From a bacterium (GTDB taxonomy: Bacteria; Verrucomicrobiota; Verrucomicrobiia; Limisphaerales; UBA11358): DNA of 64,000 nucleotides. Below are positions 57,830 through 64,000 of the stretch, one piece after another. Every line of letters starts with the position of its first letter. The first letter of the stretch is position 1. A model generated the notes under the pieces. That model made no database searches and was not told the DNA's origin. It worked only from the letters and a program-made list of their open reading frames with translations. The DNA is taken from assembly GCA_021813325.1 (NCBI GenBank), contig JAKALA010000001.1, positions 1 through 64,000 of the forward strand, given 5' to 3'. A program made the position numbers and the translations under genes.

Positions 57830-60800
57830 ATGAACAAAAAGTTTTACAATCGATTGCGGCGGGTGCCGCTGGCCGTGGCGCTCGTCGTGGTCGGATGGTT
57901 GAGCCGCCAGGGCGCGCTGGCCAACCCCACCGGCGGTGTGGTCACGCAGGGCGCCGCCTCCTTCGGCAGCGCCGGCTCCACCTTCTCGATCAATCAATCA
58001 TCCAGTTTTGCGCGGATTAGCTGGCAGTCGTTCAACATCAACCAGGGCCAGACGACGGTGTTCAACCAGCCGTCCGCATCGTCGGTGACGTGGAATTATA
58101 TCAGCGATCCGAACGCGTCCATCATCAATGGCGGCATTACCGCGAACGGCTACGTGGTGTTGCAGAATCCGAACGGCTTCACCGTGGGCGGCGATGCGTC
58201 CATCACCGCGCATGGTTTGGTGATGACCACCGCGTCACCCACCATCGATTTTTCCGGCGGCGGCGCCTGGTCGTTTGATGCGCCTCCGCCGACGGCGAAA
58301 ATTATCAATTACGGCCAGATCAATATCACCGGCGGCGGCGCGGCTTATCTCATTGCCGGCGACATCGTCAACAACGGGACCATCTCGGCTCCCGGCGGCC
58401 AGATCGGGCTGTTTGCCGGGCAAAAGGTGCTGTTGTCGTTTGCGCCGGACGGACGCGGTTTGAGCGCGGAGGTGACGTTGCCGCAGGGTTCGGTGGATAA
58501 CAACGGCCAGTTGATCGCCGACGCGGGCAGCATCGCGGCCAAGGCCCAGTTTGTGAATCAAAACGGCCTGGTGCAGGCGAATTCAGTGCGCGAAGTCAAC
58601 GGGACTATTGAGTTGGTAGCAAGCGACCGTCTGAATCTCGGCGACAAGTCGGTCATCTCGGCGCAGGGCGACAGCCAGGGAACCAGCGCGGGCGGCAGTG
58701 TGGTCGTCAAATCCGACAACCAATTCTCCGATCAAACCGGCTCCACCATTAATATCGCGGGTGGCGCGCAAGGCGGCGCGGGCGGCCATGCGGAAATTTC
58801 CGCGCGCCAGCTTGGCGCGCTCCAGACGGCCATCAACGGACGGGCGGCGGCGGGCGCCACCGGCGGCACGCTGTTGATCGATCCCTATGATCTGACCATC
58901 GACAGCAGCTACGCCAGTTCGCTGGCCACGCAGATTGCCGGCGGCCTGTCACAAATTGATTTGCAGGCGGATCACGACATCATTCTGAGCGCTTCGTTGA
59001 ACCTCGCCGATGCCAGCACCTCCTCGATGCTGACGTTGATCGCCGGGAACAACATCACGTTCAACAGCGGCTCCGCGATCAAGGCAGGCACTGATTGGAA
59101 TGTGAATTTAACGGCGGGTGCGTCCCTAGCTTCAGGGGCCACACCCACGGCGGGCAACGACGGCATCTATTTAAACGGAACCGCGCTCATCCTTTCCAAA
59201 AACGGCGACATCAATTTGCACGCGGCGAACGAGGTGCTCGTCAGCGGCGGCGCCATCCGCACCATCAGCGGCGGGAACATCAATGTGACGGCGGATTATG
59301 GCGACGTGAATTCCGGATACAACTATTACGGATTTACGTTTGGCCAGTCGGCGGCGCCGTATTACAAGGTAAATCTGGCCAATCTGGGTGGCATCAGCAC
59401 CGGGGCCGGCGGCAACGTGAGCATCTCCGCCGGCGGGGACGTCATCAGCTATTTGCCGGTGCAATCGGATTACGCCCACGCCATTTATGATGGCGGCACA
59501 GGCGCCTTCGGTTCGCCGCCCGGCAACGTCACCATTCAGGCCGGCGGCAACGTTTATGGCCATTACGTGCTGGCCAACGGCGTGGGCAACATCACCGCCG
59601 GCGGCGACCTGGGCGCGGCGACCGCCACCTTGATCAATGACCCGGAAAAGGCGTATCAGGGTTTTGCGTTGAGCTTGATCAGCGGCAGTTGGGACGTGAG
59701 CGCCGGCGGAAATGTTTACGTGCAGGATGTGCGCAACCCCAACGGCATTTTCGGCGAACGCAACGCCAGCAGCACGCCCATCAATTACGCGGGCTACCAT
59801 GCCTTTGATTATGCGGCGGATGCCTCGGTGTCCTTGGCGGCGGCGGGTTCGGTGGAAATTACCGGCTACGACGCGCCGCACAAGCCGCTGTCCAATCCGG
59901 ACATTGCCATTCCCCTGATTTTACCGCCATCGCTTAAAGTAACGACGGATGCCGGGGATTTGATCTTGGACAGTTCGGTCATTTTATATCCGTCGGCGGA
60001 TCAAAATTTGAATCTCACGCTGGCGGGCAGCTTGATCGGCGTGCCCAACGGTGATCCGATCAATCTGGCAATGTCCGACAGCGCCGCGACCCGCTGGACA
60101 CAGCAAGGTGATTTTGAAACGGGCGATCACGCGGTGGCACCTTTGGGCAGCGGAAATCAGGGAGGAGTAAACATTAAGGTCGGCGGCAATTGGGAAAACC
60201 TCAACATTTACACCACCAAAAAAACCGACATTACCGCGGGCGGAGATGTCATCAACTCCGGATTTGCCGGCGAAAATCTGACTGCCGGTGACACCACGTC
60301 GATTTATGTGAACGGGAACATTTACAACAGCCCGTTGCTGACCTTTGCCCAACTGCCATCGGCCATCGTGAGCGCCAATCCGCTGCAGCCGGCAGCCTGG
60401 GATTCCGTTTTTGAACTGGCGCTGGATCCGGCGCTCGTGGCGCAGCTCACGAGTTTTGACGCCACACATCCGCCCGGCGGCGACCTGGCCGCCTATTTGA
60501 AAGCCCAGAATTATCTGCTGTTTCCCAGCGCCAGCGCCAGCGCCTACGGCAGCAATCCCGGTTTCATTTACGATGCCAGCTCATTACAACTGGCGTTCCG
60601 GGGCAACATGCTGTCATCGCCATTTTTATCGGCGAACAAAATCGCCGCCTTGGAATCCGGAACTTTCACCGTGCTGGTGGCCGATTCGCAAGGCAACCCG
60701 GTGATCGATCCCGCCACCGGCCATTTGCAGGTGCGGACCTATGATTTCAGCGCCGCGCCGGTGATCGCCAGCATGGTCGCCGCCAGCCAGAGCGCGACGA

Positions 60801-62053
60801 CCACCGAAGGACTGGGTTTCCTGATCGGCGGTCCGGGCGCGTTTGCGATCCACGCCCGCTCGATTGATCTCGGCTATTCGCCCGGGATCATCTCTTATGG
60901 GTTTGGATCGCGCTACGCGTCGCTGCAAAGCCTGACCGGTCGGGCCGGTGAAGGCGGCGCTTCCGTGGATGTGAGTGTGAACAATAATTTGAGCCTGCTG
61001 ACTTCCTCCATCAATTCGATCGACGGCGGCAAAGTCACAGTCCATGCGGGCGGCAACATTGATCTGGGCAGCGGCGGCTTTGATTTCCAGAACAACGATT
61101 GCTACGGCATTTTCACTTCCGGTTACAGCGATGTGGAAGTAACGGCGGCGGGCGACATCAATGTCGGGGGCGGATGCATTGCCACGTTCAACGGCGGCGA
61201 CGTCACGGTGGAATCCGTCAACGGCCATGTCAATGCCGGCAACGGCGTCAACCGCGCCTTGCAAGTTTACACCATTTATCCCAATCCCACGACGGGGTTG
61301 CCGCTGTTTGGCACCATGGGCGATCTGACGGACTTGGTTTCTTTGCAGGTTGACCCGGCGCCGTATGGCAGCGGCATTCTGGCGGAATTCCCGACCAAAA
61401 AATACCAATGGGCCTATGGCTTCACCCAGCCGGGAAACATCACCATCAAGACTCCTCACGGAAACATTGTTTCCAGCCGTGGCGGCATTTCCCAGTTTGC
61501 CCTGAACAGCAGCATTGGCGGGGAACCCTCGGTGACGTTGGAGGCGGGCCTGGCCGGCGTGGCCGCGACCGCGGACAGCGGCAATGTCATACTGGGCATG
61601 GGGGGGGTTATCGGCGGCACAGTGAATGTCACCGCCCGGGGTAAAGTGGAAGGGTTGATCGTTTCCCAACACGACGCCAACATCAGCGCCGCGCAAAGTT
61701 TCAGCGGCACGGTGCTTTCGGGCGGCACGGCGAATTTTGCCGGATCGGGTTCCATTGCCGGCACCGTGGTGGGCATCGCCGGGATCAGCACCGGAGCGGG
61801 CAACAGCAGCGGCGCAAACCTGCTATCGCAGAATGTTTCGTCTGGCAACGGCAGTTCCCAGTCCACGTTGGGCACTTCGGCCACGGCCACGACGGCCAGC
61901 CAGGCGGCGGCGCAACAATCCAGCCAGGCAGCCAACCAACAGGCTTCCACCGATACGAGCAGCGACGATGATCTTAAGAAGAAAAAGAAGCCGCGCGTGC
62001 GCAAGGTCAGCCGCGTGACCGTGCTCCTATCATCTGCGGAAAATGCTCATTAA
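57830..62053 (+). CDS. Filamentous hemagglutinin-like exoprotein (TpsA)
   Basis: 1407 residues. A signal peptide-like N-terminus (about 1-31) is followed by the TPS secretion domain (about 32-270), which contains the NPNG motif (113-116, LQNPNGFTVGGDASITAHGLV) and NGTIS/NNGQLIADAG repeats. The rest is a Gly/Ala/Asn-rich beta-helix with repeated segments such as AGGNVYV, SAGGDVIS, GGNINV and NVTARGKV. The C-terminus is unusual: a Ser/Gln-rich linker, then a Lys-run (1383-1387) and a basic hydrophobic end (PRVRKVSRVTVLL). It is the passenger of the adjacent TpsB and probably an adhesin; the partner surface is unknown. Confidence 0.93.
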   Translation: MNKKFYNRLRRVPLAVALVVVGWLSRQGALANPTGGVVTQGAASFGSAGSTFSINQSSSFARISWQSFNINQGQTTVFNQPSASSVTWNYISDPNASIINGGITANGYVVLQNPNGFTVGGDASITAHGLVMTTASPTIDFSGGGAWSFDAPPPTAKIINYGQINITGGGAAYLIAGDIVNNGTISAPGGQIGLFAGQKVLLSFAPDGRGLSAEVTLPQGSVDNNGQLIADAGSIAAKAQFVNQNGLVQANSVREVNGTIELVASDRLNLGDKSVISAQGDSQGTSAGGSVVVKSDNQFSDQTGSTINIAGGAQGGAGGHAEISARQLGALQTAINGRAAAGATGGTLLIDPYDLTIDSSYASSLATQIAGGLSQIDLQADHDIILSASLNLADASTSSMLTLIAGNNITFNSGSAIKAGTDWNVNLTAGASLASGATPTAGNDGIYLNGTALILSKNGDINLHAANEVLVSGGAIRTISGGNINVTADYGDVNSGYNYYGFTFGQSAAPYYKVNLANLGGISTGAGGNVSISAGGDVISYLPVQSDYAHAIYDGGTGAFGSPPGNVTIQAGGNVYGHYVLANGVGNITAGGDLGAATATLINDPEKAYQGFALSLISGSWDVSAGGNVYVQDVRNPNGIFGERNASSTPINYAGYHAFDYAADASVSLAAAGSVEITGYDAPHKPLSNPDIAIPLILPPSLKVTTDAGDLILDSSVILYPSADQNLNLTLAGSLIGVPNGDPINLAMSDSAATRWTQQGDFETGDHAVAPLGSGNQGGVNIKVGGNWENLNIYTTKKTDITAGGDVINSGFAGENLTAGDTTSIYVNGNIYNSPLLTFAQLPSAIVSANPLQPAAWDSVFELALDPALVAQLTSFDATHPPGGDLAAYLKAQNYLLFPSASASAYGSNPGFIYDASSLQLAFRGNMLSSPFLSANKIAALESGTFTVLVADSQGNPVIDPATGHLQVRTYDFSAAPVIASMVAASQSATTTEGLGFLIGGPGAFAIHARSIDLGYSPGIISYGFGSRYASLQSLTGRAGEGGASVDVSVNNNLSLLTSSINSIDGGKVTVHAGGNIDLGSGGFDFQNNDCYGIFTSGYSDVEVTAAGDINVGGGCIATFNGGDVTVESVNGHVNAGNGVNRALQVYTIYPNPTTGLPLFGTMGDLTDLVSLQVDPAPYGSGILAEFPTKKYQWAYGFTQPGNITIKTPHGNIVSSRGGISQFALNSSIGGEPSVTLEAGLAGVAATADSGNVILGMGGVIGGTVNVTARGKVEGLIVSQHDANISAAQSFSGTVLSGGTANFAGSGSIAGTVVGIAGISTGAGNSSGANLLSQNVSSGNGSSQSTLGTSATATTASQAAAQQSSQAANQQASTDTSSDDDLKKKKKPRVRKVSRVTVLLSSAENAH

Positions 62054-62102
62054 TCCGCCACGCCCACTGGCGAAATGCCCGGCCCCGGAGCGCTAAAGGC
62101 CA

Positions 62103-63050
62103 TTACGACTGCGAAGCCGTCTCGGCCACAACCTTCCCGCCATTCACCAGAAACAGCACGGCCATGCGCACGGCCAGACCGTTGGTCACCTGCTCCAAAA
62201 TCACCGAGCGATTGCAATCGGCGATTTCGCTGTCAATTTCCACCCCGCGGTTGATCGGGCCGGGATGCATGATGATGGCGTCCGATTTCGTTCTGGCGAG
62301 GCGGGCCTTGTTCAGACCAAAGAGTTGTGAATATTCGCCGATGCTCGGGAACAGGGTCTTGCGCTGGCGCTCATGCTGAATGCGCAACAGGTTGATGACA
62401 TCCGCATCACGAATCGCCTCATCCATGTCATGCGTCACCCGGCAGCCCATCTGTTCAAAAGTCTTCGGCACCAGTGTGGACGGACCGCACAAAGTAATGT
62501 TCGCGCCGAGTTTGGTCAGCGCCCAGATGTCGGACCGCGCCACGCGGCTGTAAAGAATATCGCCGAGAATGGTGACATTCAGCCCGGCAATGCGGCCTTT
62601 TTTTTCGCGAATGGTGAACGTATCGAGCAACGCCTGGGTGGGATGTTCATGCGCGCCGTCGCCGGCGTTGACCACGTGCGCATCCAGCACGCGCGATAAA
62701 AAATGCGGCGCGCCGCTGGCGCTGTGGCGGATGATGATGAAATCCGCATTCAGCGCCTGTAGATTTAACGCGGTATCCTTGAGCGTTTCGCCTTTTTTGA
62801 ACGAGGAGGCCTCGGCGGAAAACTGAATGACATCCGCGCTCAATCGCGTGGCGGCCAGCTCAAAGCTGGTGCGGGTGCGGGTGGAAGGTTCCACGAAAAG
62901 ATTCACAACGGTCTTGCCGCGCAACGCGGGGACTTTCTTGATGGCGCGTTCGCCCACGGCCTTGAAACCGCGCGCCGTGTCCAGCACCGTGGTGATTTCC
63001 TCGGCGGTGAGTGATTCGATGTCGAGCAGATGTTTTTTGGTCCAGCTCAT
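62103..63050 (-). CDS. pyrB: Aspartate carbamoyltransferase catalytic subunit
   Basis: 315 residues. Carbamoyl-phosphate motif STRTRTSF (from 56), HPTQ (136-139, in [12 protein letters not shown]) and the aspartate-site [11 protein letters not shown] are all present, separating it from ornithine transcarbamoylase. It makes N-carbamoyl-aspartate in pyrimidine synthesis. pyrR lies 96 bp upstream in the same direction, a PyrR-regulated operon arrangement. No pyrI regulatory subunit gene follows, so it is probably the unregulated-trimer class. Confidence 0.97.
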
Positions 63051-63146
63051 AATTGGGAGGAGTTTATTGCCAAAGCCTGACGTCCGGTGGCGCGCTGTGG
63101 GAGCCGCGCGAACCGCGTCCCGCCCCGGTCAGCAGGGTTTGGCCAT

Positions 63147-63686
63147 TCAGTGTTTTTTCCGCAGCAACACCTGATCCGGCGCCGCGCCGGCTTCGGTGAG
63201 CAGCAGGGAAATGGTTTCATCCAGGGAAGTCGGCACGTTTTTGCCGACGAAATCCGCCTTGATGGGCAGTTCGCGATGGCCGCGATCGATGAGCACCGCG
63301 AGCTGAATTCGCTTGGGCCGGCCAAAATCATTGAGCGCATCCATGGCGGCCCGCGTGGTGCGTCCGCTGAACAAGACGTCGTCCACCAGCACCGCGGTTT
63401 TGCCGGTGACGTCAAAGAGAATTTCCGTGGGATGCACCGTGGGCGCAATGCGGTCGGACAAATCGTCGCGATGCATCGTCACATCCAGAATGCCCACGGG
63501 CACGGCATGGTTCCAAATGCCGGAAAGGATTTTTGCCAGGCGCAAGGCGAGATGGTCGCCGCCCACCGGGATGCCAATCAAAGCCACTTCGCTGCTCTGT
63601 TCATTGCGCTCGGCGATCTCGTGGGCGATGCGGGTCAAAGCGCGCTGAATGGCGTTGCTATCGAGGATGACAGTGGGTTCAGGCAT
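63147..63686 (-). CDS. pyrR: Bifunctional pyr operon RNA-binding regulator/uracil phosphoribosyltransferase
   Basis: 179 residues with the PRPP-binding motif AVLVDDVLFSGRTTRAAMDAL (about 93-113) and the PyrR-type GIPVGGDHLALRLA and LDVTMHRDDLS segments (the basic/aromatic pattern used for RNA binding). In Bacillus it binds pyr mRNA with UMP and promotes termination. The leader immediately upstream contains a matching binding loop and terminator. The ATG directly follows the terminator U-tract. Confidence 0.95.
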   Translation of the reverse strand: MPEPTVILDSNAIQRALTRIAHEIAERNEQSSEVALIGIPVGGDHLALRLAKILSGIWNHAVPVGILDVTMHRDDLSDRIAPTVHPTEILFDVTGKTAVLVDDVLFSGRTTRAAMDALNDFGRPKRIQLAVLIDRGHRELPIKADFVGKNVPTSLDETISLLLTEAGAAPDQVLLRKKH

Positions 63687-63690
63687 AAAA

Positions 63691-63733
63691 AAACACGAAC
63701 CGCACCCGCCGGACGGGGCTGATTCGCGTGTTT
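63691..63733 (-). terminator. Attenuator terminator before pyrR
   Basis: On the minus strand AAACACG (63727-63733) pairs with CGUGUUU (63691-63697). Inner pairs AAUC/GGUU and CCCG/CGGG extend the helix with small bulges. The 3' arm merges with a U-tract of seven (63687-63693) that ends at the pyrR ATG. It is an intrinsic terminator between the PyrR-binding hairpin and the operon. Confidence 0.7.
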
Positions 63734-63749
63734 GGTTTCGTCTTCATTT

Positions 63750-63784
63750 TTCCTTGGCCACCTCGCTGGGCGACCTTAAAGGAA
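63750..63784 (-). promoter_or_regulatory. Candidate PyrR-binding loop in the pyrRB leader
   Basis: Minus-strand RNA folds as UUCCUU, bulge UAA, GGUCGCC, hexaloop CAGCGA, GGUGGCC, AAGGAA. The lower stem has six pairs, the upper stem seven (two G-U), the bulge is on the 5' side. The hexaloop fits CNGNGA, and CC-AGCGAGGU fits most of the published PyrR consensus (ARUCCNGNGAGGYU). It lies 60-100 nt upstream of pyrR and just before the terminator. Confidence 0.72.
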
Positions 63785-63803
63785 TCATTAGCGGATTCGC
63801 GGG

Positions 63804-64000
63804 CTAATTCTGGGCGGCCGCGTGACGGGCGCGACGCCAGGAAGCACGGTGCTTAATGATCCAATCCGTCAAAGCGCGTTCAAAACCGACATCATAACCG
63901 GCCTTTTCTGATTCAAGCCATTTGTGGCGAAGAATTTCTTCCCGTTCAGCTTGAAACTCGCGGTAAAGCGTGGAGTTTTTCAGCAAATCGTTTGCTGACG
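63804..64000 (-). CDS. C-terminal part of a conserved protein, partial at window end
   Basis: The frame is open from the right edge of the window through to the stop at 63804-63806, so only the C-terminal 65 or so residues are visible. It reads ..NSTLYREFQAEREEIL then RHKWLESEKAGYDVGFERAL and a basic tail WRRARHAAAQN. The block HKWLxSExAGYDVGFExAL resembles the C-terminal part of DUF4032-like proteins, from memory and with low certainty. TTG 63986 is a possible start of a very short protein. Its stop lies only 19 bp from the PyrR loop. Confidence 0.5.
   Translation of the reverse strand, partial: SANDLLKNSTLYREFQAEREEILRHKWLESEKAGYDVGFERALTDWIIKHRASWRRARHAAAQN

Follow-up and report, generated by a model that had tools for sequence, protein, structure and literature searches.

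A PyrR hairpin bearing the ribosome-binding site of a leader reading frame probably controls attenuation at a verrucomicrobial pyrRB locus

Introduction

What kind of switch stands before the pyrR gene of a bacterium of the order Limisphaerales (Verrucomicrobiota)? PyrR attenuation is the textbook case of a protein-controlled antiterminator. Its mechanism in Bacillus is summarised in PMC4347634, PyrR attenuation in Streptococcus pneumoniae is treated in PMC6296669, and a survey of Rfam regulons across 24 lineages includes PyrR, Verrucomicrobia being absent among the table rows listed (PMC3766115). Two further sources cover re-initiation after leader genes (PMC4833913) and premature terminators (PMC2965389), and the accessible part of each holds no PyrR leader peptide. 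Our literature search, which covered titles and the beginnings of abstracts and had most subscription journals outside its scope, returned, among the papers listed, none that deals with a PyrR leader peptide or with verrucomicrobial PyrR attenuation. To our knowledge, a PyrR mechanism based on a leader ORF has so far only been proposed, for Thermus.

The DNA analysed here (the window) is a stretch of 64,000 nucleotides from contig JAKALA010000001.1; coordinates refer to it except where another locus is named. A sequence-only reading of the window had assigned one PyrR-binding hairpin, a terminator and a possible antiterminator to the leader of a probable pyrRB operon, and had inferred that the same switch as in Bacillus operates there. 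We examined these elements in the window and in related leaders.

Results

A pyrRB operon with a hairpin and a terminator in its leader

The pyrR gene (63147..63686, minus strand; ATG at 63686-63684) encodes a bifunctional pyr regulator/uracil phosphoribosyltransferase of 179 aa, which matched family NF003549 with 221.4 bits against a cut-off of 138, and it has no Shine-Dalgarno (SD) sequence of its own. It is followed on the same strand by pyrB (62103..63050), the 315-aa catalytic subunit of aspartate carbamoyltransferase (NF002032, 417 bits against a cut-off of 263). These matches support the pyrRB operon assumed from the sequence, and a pyrB match was found on the same strand at 135 of 137 leader loci. 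Upstream lies the 3' part of a 73-aa gene with a DUF4032-like stretch (63804..64000, minus strand; Pfam PF13224, E 2.3e-5), which ends 19 nt before the hairpin and is present as a whole gene in a related locus (L003, 2155-2376). This leaves little space for a promoter, and pyrRB may be transcribed together with the 73-aa gene. A scan of 62000-64000 for a sigma-70-like promoter consensus gave no site, an uninformative result. By eye, a tail like that of the 73-aa gene was seen upstream of pyrR in a number of relatives. Convergent to pyrB, a 1407-aa ORF on the plus strand (57830-62053) resembles, by eye, a filamentous-haemagglutinin-type secreted protein.

The predicted PyrR-binding hairpin spans 63750..63784 on the minus strand. 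When the minus-strand leader (63810-63675) was read directly, the hairpin consisted of a lower stem of 6 pairs (UUCCUU/AAGGAA), a 5' bulge UAA (63778-63776), an upper stem of 7 pairs including two G-U (GGUCGCC/GGUGGCC) and the loop CAGCGA (63768-63763). It is followed by a terminator hairpin (63693..63729, minus strand) supported by the fold and by terminator-like hairpins in relatives, and by a tract of seven T (63687..63693, minus strand) that adjoins the pyrR ATG. Both sequence and fold thus placed hairpin, loop, bulge, stems, terminator and U-tract where the sequence-only reading had located them. Fold prediction gave -16.3 kcal/mol for the hairpin stretch (z -2.3; 2 of 200 shuffles equally stable), -21.9 kcal/mol for the terminator stretch (z -2.8; 1 of 200) and -41.1 kcal/mol for the whole 121-nt leader (z -1.95; 8 of 200), the predicted fold of which was made of the hairpin, the terminator and a 3-pair hairpin 5' of both. 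A simple terminator scan of 62000-64000 listed six sites, the pyrR terminator not among them; its stem has a bulge, which the scan probably does not allow.

Homology of the hairpin with the known PyrR-binding element

The Rfam PyrR model (RF00515) matched 63786-63688 over its full length (model positions 1-115 of 115) with 34.4 bits, corresponding to E = 0.0028 for the 301 bases searched and 0.0094 for the whole genome. This score lies below the curated cut-off of 54 bits, and the window was not listed at the gathering threshold. The Rfam scan that had been proposed as a check therefore gave a full-length alignment and a score below the cut-off: by score the window falls outside RF00515, and by form (stem-bulge-stem, CNGNGA-type loop, invariant loop positions, full-length alignment and covariation) it belongs to it. 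Among 12 leaders from the window's group, one (L044, 56.7 bits) was the sole one above the cut-off, 4 scored between 43.9 and 49.9 bits, and 7 were not listed at E 0.05. The cut-off therefore misses such elements, in 11 of the 12 leaders tested. Matches of the Fluoride riboswitch and GlsR5 models over the leader were far below their cut-offs and were dismissed as chance.

Covariation was measured in a nearly ungapped alignment of 45 loci with the hairpin, comprising 44 distinct rows. Stem cells paired in 89.7% of cases; shuffles came to 83.3%, none of 500 reaching the observed value, and sliding the partner gave 35-55%. A change on both sides was present in 30 cells compared with 13.9 in shuffles (again 0 of 500). 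Two-sided changes occurred in 5 of 13 pairs, a figure reached by 25 of 500 shuffles, and 16 further pair types were seen, reached by 108 of 500. The strongest covarying pair, 15:28, occurred as C-G, G-C, A-U, G-U and U-G. The stem thus covaries over 44 distinct rows, whereas a lack of covariation in homologous leaders had been named as grounds for giving up the attenuator.

A covariance model (R1) was then built from the alignment of the window's relatives, with no Bacillus sequence in it. R1 found the hairpin in the pyrR leader of Bacillus velezensis with 36.3 bits, the one in the pyrP leader weakly (18.7 bits, E 0.063), and hairpins at 11 of 11 Thermus loci. It also matched Paenibacillus, Lactobacillus, Symbiobacteriaceae, Microbacterium, Rokubacteria and one Omnitrophota locus, and missed Nonomuraea (L167) and the Omnitrophota locus L237. 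In L169 and L176 it also reported sites that do not lie at a pyrR start. Because R1 matches the Bacillus and Thermus hairpins and L044 passes the Rfam cut-off, the comparison of sequences indicates that the window hairpin is homologous to the known PyrR-binding element. In the window's genome R1 lists one match at E 0.01 or better, in line with the single site postulated earlier. A candidate second site (G000:C41; 22.7 bits, E 1.46) overlaps the 3' end of a porin-like ORF in a 3.1-kb stretch in which no pyr gene was seen by eye, and was judged to be chance.

A leader ORF runs from the hairpin to the pyrR start

Absent from the sequence-only reading was a leader ORF of 22 codons (pyrL-like; 63679..63747, minus strand; MKTKPNTRISPVRRVRFVFFYA), whose start codon, frame and stop are conserved. 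It crosses the terminator hairpin in frame and closes with a TGA, overlapping the beginning of pyrR by 8 nt (ATGCCTGA). The motif AAGGA (63751..63755, minus strand) is at once part of the 3' arm of the lower stem and the SD sequence of this ORF, the ATG of which lies 3 nt further on. The predicted duplex with the anti-SD amounted to -7.4 kcal/mol at the leader ORF versus -2.4 kcal/mol at pyrR. Opening the SD in the free hairpin would cost 5.1 kcal/mol in the window (median 4.9 over 129 leaders), and from this cost a ribosome could compete for the SD unless PyrR clamps the stem. We also considered the ORF as an N-terminal extension of PyrR and rejected this because the frame differs, the distance from its start to pyrR being 61 nt in the window. 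The leader peptide had no match in Pfam.

The leader ORF keeps its frame and its stop across relatives

The PyrR search matched 59 of 59 genomes, the window's own included; among the matches listed, those in G008, G025, G028, G034 and G044 were weak and probably paralogous. Fifty-five loci (L003-L057) were read upstream of pyrR and 45 carried the hairpin; 10 were dropped (L046, L048, L049, L051-L057) because the regex found no element or pyrR was present only as a fragment. In L050, which has a run of N, we assigned the pyrR start manually, and in L041 we moved it by one codon. A further 106 loci (L060-L165) included two without pyrR (L068, L162) and two added by hand because their arms vary (L148, L152). 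The resulting 149 leaders comprised 137 distinct ones. The R1 element was present in 115 of 245 genomes of the order and in 5 of 288 genomes sampled over the phylum, the window's genome included; loss, divergence or incomplete assembly would account for the 130 genomes of the order that gave no match.

A start codon followed AAGGN at a distance of 0-9 nt in all 137 distinct leaders (ATG in 133, GTG in 4); as background, equally sized windows taken from within pyrR held an ATG in 100 of 407 cases. This start opened a separate ORF in 129 leaders, was the pyrR start itself in 4 (L060, L062, L063, L152) and read on for more than 300 nt past the pyrR start in 4, in frame with pyrR in L081, L098 and L161 and out of frame in L109. 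The stop of the leader ORF fell within -12..+30 of the pyrR start in 117 of the 129, in 83 of them exactly as in the window; L061, which is counted here, really has its hairpin SD directly before pyrR, with two ATG in a row, and the figure is 117 of 128 without it. Dinucleotide shuffles of the spacer gave an expected 80.1 stops at the pyrR start (sd 4.6, of 129), and a by-product of the scarcity of stops in GC-rich DNA, which would account for about 80 rather than 117 of 129, was therefore rejected. Within the order, 117 of 128 leaders had such a stop; 25 of 27 families contained at least one leader of this kind, and in 20 of 27 every leader was of this kind. The exceptions were family f113, in which 1 of 6 ORFs ended at pyrR, f20 and f12 (0 of 1 each), and single members of f1, f2, f9 and f96.

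The distance from the start codon to pyrR ranged from 50 to 292 nt. Counted from AAGG, the distance to pyrR showed no preferred frame (28/26/24 of 78 combinations), whereas counted from the start codon one frame was preferred (49/20/5 of 74 family-distance combinations, p 8.5e-9, a value to be taken as a guide only, the leaders being related and p values overstating their independence). Indels are free before the ATG and not after it; therefore the reading frame is what is kept. In L019 and L020 the ORFs lie in unusual frames, yet their stops fall at +4 and -9 relative to the start of pyrR, and the ORFs were apparently re-fitted once the frame had shifted.

Terminator-like hairpins were detected in 99 of the 129 leaders versus 15 of 387 shuffles by a scan that replaced a stricter first one, which had found them in 63 of 129. 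The leader ORF spanned the whole terminator hairpin in 94 of the 99, and the 5' arm of the terminator began a median of 22 nt after the leader start codon. In 27 of the 30 leaders without a detected terminator the ORF still ended at pyrR, which marks the link to the ribosome as the more conserved part in this sequence comparison.

Pairing with the anti-SD reached -5 kcal/mol or stronger at 122 of 129 leader ORF starts, a count that is partly built in because AAGG was partly a selection criterion of the regex, and at 16 of 129 pyrR starts. Equally strong pairing was found at 12% of random positions, a rate to which that of pyrR is close. As pyrR lacks a strong SD, it seems to rely on ribosomes that arrive by way of the leader ORF. 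The hairpin, the terminator, the leader ORF with its frame and stop, and the missing SD of pyrR are features established by comparing the leaders with one another.

The proposed antiterminator pairing is not conserved

The antiterminator proposed earlier consists of UGAUUC (63787-63782) and GAAUCA (63725-63720). Both strands are present in the window and form a perfect 6-nt pairing. Of the 28 leaders from the same genus in which a terminator was detected, the window's own is the only one with all six positions paired. On average 4.18 of the 6 positions paired in these 28 leaders, versus 4.08 in shuffles. The pairing was therefore rejected as an antiterminator: it is present in the window and not conserved.

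Complementarity between the upstream RNA and the 5' arm of the terminator was scored in 99 leaders, giving a mean z of -0.30 with 4 of 99 at -2 or below in a test of limited power. The window itself scored +1.3, and family f123 had a median of -1.85. Among the Bacillota controls, the values were -3.1 for Symbiobacteriaceae, -1.65 for Lactobacillus, -1.5 for Paenibacillus and +0.5 for B. velezensis. Thermus leaders, in which no antiterminator is expected, scored -2.0 (L172), -1.65 (L176), +0.1 (L181) and -2.3 (L178, in which the hairpin was wrongly cut); the power of the test is limited in that only one of the four Bacillota controls fell below -2 and two of these four Thermus leaders came out at about -2. 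A conserved antiterminator of the Bacillus type was thus not found, with 1 of 28 perfect pairings and a mean z of -0.30 over 99 leaders at this limited power. The claim of the same switch as in Bacillus was not supported: its pairing is not conserved, and the conserved feature is a leader ORF with its SD in the PyrR hairpin.

Leader ORFs and direct occlusion in other lineages

In all 11 Thermus leaders the 3' arm of the hairpin contained AAAGG, followed by purines and then a start codon. The ORF stopped 11-25 nt into pyrR in 10 of the 11, past the terminator seen by eye. One of the Thermus leaders (L178) fits from GTG only, an ATG before the GTG meeting a stop, and another (L173) reads on. As in the window, the ORF starts from an arm of the PyrR hairpin and runs across the terminator into pyrR. 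The two differ in the overlap with pyrR, usually 8 nt with TGA in the window's order and 11 nt with TAA in Thermus, and in the pyrR ribosome site: Thermus pyrR keeps a GGAGG-like SD (by eye), whereas pyrR of the window's order has none. Because pyrR lacks an SD of its own there, coupling should matter more in the window's order. Van de Casteele et al. (1997) reportedly proposed that PyrR attenuation in Thermus ZO5 needs no antiterminator, because the terminator is prevented by a translating ribosome. The window has the anatomy of this type (SD in the PyrR hairpin, ORF over the terminator, stop at the pyrR start), and on the sequences compared it is well supported as a variant of the proposed Thermus type, differing in a pyrR without SD.

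The same arrangement as in Thermus and the window was found in Rokubacteria (L184) and Omnitrophota (L188, L237). L188 fits from its second GTG only, and L237 has a variant loop. In L185, an ORF from TTG ended 42 nt before pyrR. A motif scan of 62 cyanobacterial loci found no element, apart from one chance-like match in L232.

In four loci of the window's class outside its order (L060-L063), the SD in the hairpin stands directly before pyrR, which it would serve with no leader ORF between; in L061 two ATG stand in a row, of which the second is that of pyrR. In the actinobacterium Nonomuraea (L167), AAAGG directly precedes in-frame pyrR starts. Fields and Switzer (2007) reportedly described translational repression by PyrR in Mycobacterium smegmatis. 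There, as in the window, PyrR would occlude the first ribosome-binding site of the operon. In M. smegmatis pyrR itself appears to be served by this site and a terminator is lacking, whereas in the window the site serves a leader ORF that spans a terminator; direct occlusion of the mycobacterial type therefore does not describe the window, and it describes L060-L063 instead. Microbacterium (L171) was considered as a further case of direct occlusion and rejected because the GTG and ATG near its SD are out of frame with pyrR; the ORFs that these two codons open finish 37 and 53 nt past the first matched base, and neither pattern fits.

Bacillota gave a mixed picture. In B. velezensis, Lactobacillus and Symbiobacteriaceae AAGG had neither an ATG nor a GTG within 30 nt, and pyrR had its own SD (by eye). 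On a plasmid of Paenibacillus cellulosilyticus (L168, 1242-1480), a GTG eight bases from the start of AAGG begins an ORF of 60 codons, the end of which lies 17 nt short of pyrR. A leader ORF may therefore exist in some Bacillota too, and this GTG-started ORF makes the contrast with Bacillota less than absolute. Acetoanaerobium (L169) had no element before pyrR.

Discussion

PyrR-controlled attenuation through a leader ORF is the best explanation for the window and, judged on the sequences compared, a probable one. When UMP is present, PyrR would hold the hairpin closed and bury AAGGA, the SD of the leader ORF. With the SD buried no ribosome would load, the terminator inside the ORF would fold, and transcription would stop before pyrR. 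Transcripts that escaped termination would in addition be translated only poorly, since pyrR lacks its own ribosome site. At low UMP, PyrR would leave, the lower stem would open, and a ribosome would start on the leader ORF. This ribosome would cover the 5' arm of the terminator, so that the terminator could not fold, and would stop on the pyrR start codon and re-initiate there. Binding of PyrR to the hairpin and the role of UMP as effector are presumed by analogy with PyrR of other bacteria. The arrangement of the conserved parts suggests that the ORF is translated, that the ribosome suppresses the terminator and that re-initiation occurs. A point against this model is the tight margin for the ribosome, which has to bind no more than about 60 nt from RNA polymerase.

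Three other mechanisms could use some of the same parts. If PyrR merely hid the leader SD and pyrR were controlled by translational coupling only, the terminator would be weak or a relic; the overlap of ORF and pyrR in 27 of 30 leaders without a detected terminator would fit, as would the direct placement of the hairpin SD before an in-frame pyrR start in L060-L063 and the actinobacterium L167, and the reported mycobacterial precedent. The excess of terminator-like hairpins over shuffles speaks against a relic, and terminators seem to be maintained because they are frequent although their sequences differ between families, so we regard purely translational control as unlikely. We give even less credence to a Bacillus-type switch, in which PyrR-UMP stabilises the hairpin as an anti-antiterminator and upstream RNA pairs with the 5' arm of the terminator when PyrR is absent. 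The hairpin shares its form and full-length Rfam alignment with the Bacillus subtilis-type attenuator, it stands with the terminator in the right order and at the right spacing, and the window contains the perfect UGAUUC:GAAUCA pairing. That pairing is nevertheless perfect in 1 of 28 leaders, there is hardly any excess complementarity over 99 leaders (at limited power), and such a switch leaves the conserved frame of the leader ORF and the missing pyrR SD unexplained. The window further differs from the B. subtilis type in the lack of a conserved antiterminator, in a leader ORF that starts from the hairpin, and in having one site instead of several.

The gate of the Escherichia coli pyrBI operon is UTP-dependent pausing of RNA polymerase. 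A UTP-sensing switch of this kind, in which pausing decides and PyrR is unimportant, would share with the window the anatomy of a leader ORF across a terminator, the gate preferred here being a PyrR-binding hairpin over the leader SD. In E. coli pyrBI, as in the leader-ORF model for the window, a ribosome on the leader ORF (pyrL) prevents termination, according to PMC5021804. Two facts argue against this explanation, which we find scarcely credible: the SD lies in a PyrR hairpin that is conserved and covaries, and pyrR comes first among the genes.

PyrR-controlled leader-ORF attenuation would thus place a PyrR hairpin that carries the SD of a leader gene where PyrR control and leader-peptide control are joined in one short RNA. 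The frame kept through indels, the stop on the pyrR start and the lack of a pyrR SD make this a strong and testable case. On balance, and with little more confidence than an even chance would warrant, we propose that outside Bacillota PyrR generally gates a ribosome site and not an antiterminator, and that the leaders represent two states of one switch lineage. In one state, found in the actinobacterium and in some families of the window's class, pyrR itself would be occluded directly. In the other, found in Thermus, Rokubacteria, Omnitrophota and the window's order, a leader ORF that controls a terminator would be occluded. The leader ORF would then be a double lock on an SD-less pyrR, acting, if this is true, on both its transcription and its translation. 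The comparative evidence also suggests that annotating RF00515-like elements outside Bacillota as antiterminator switches by default is unwise.

Family f113 (L129, L133, L141, L146, L150, L155) is possibly a third arrangement. Its leaders keep the hairpin and the SD, and in five of the six the ORF ends elsewhere than at pyrR, being either short (six codons, MKIVII, in two) or continuing into pyrR.
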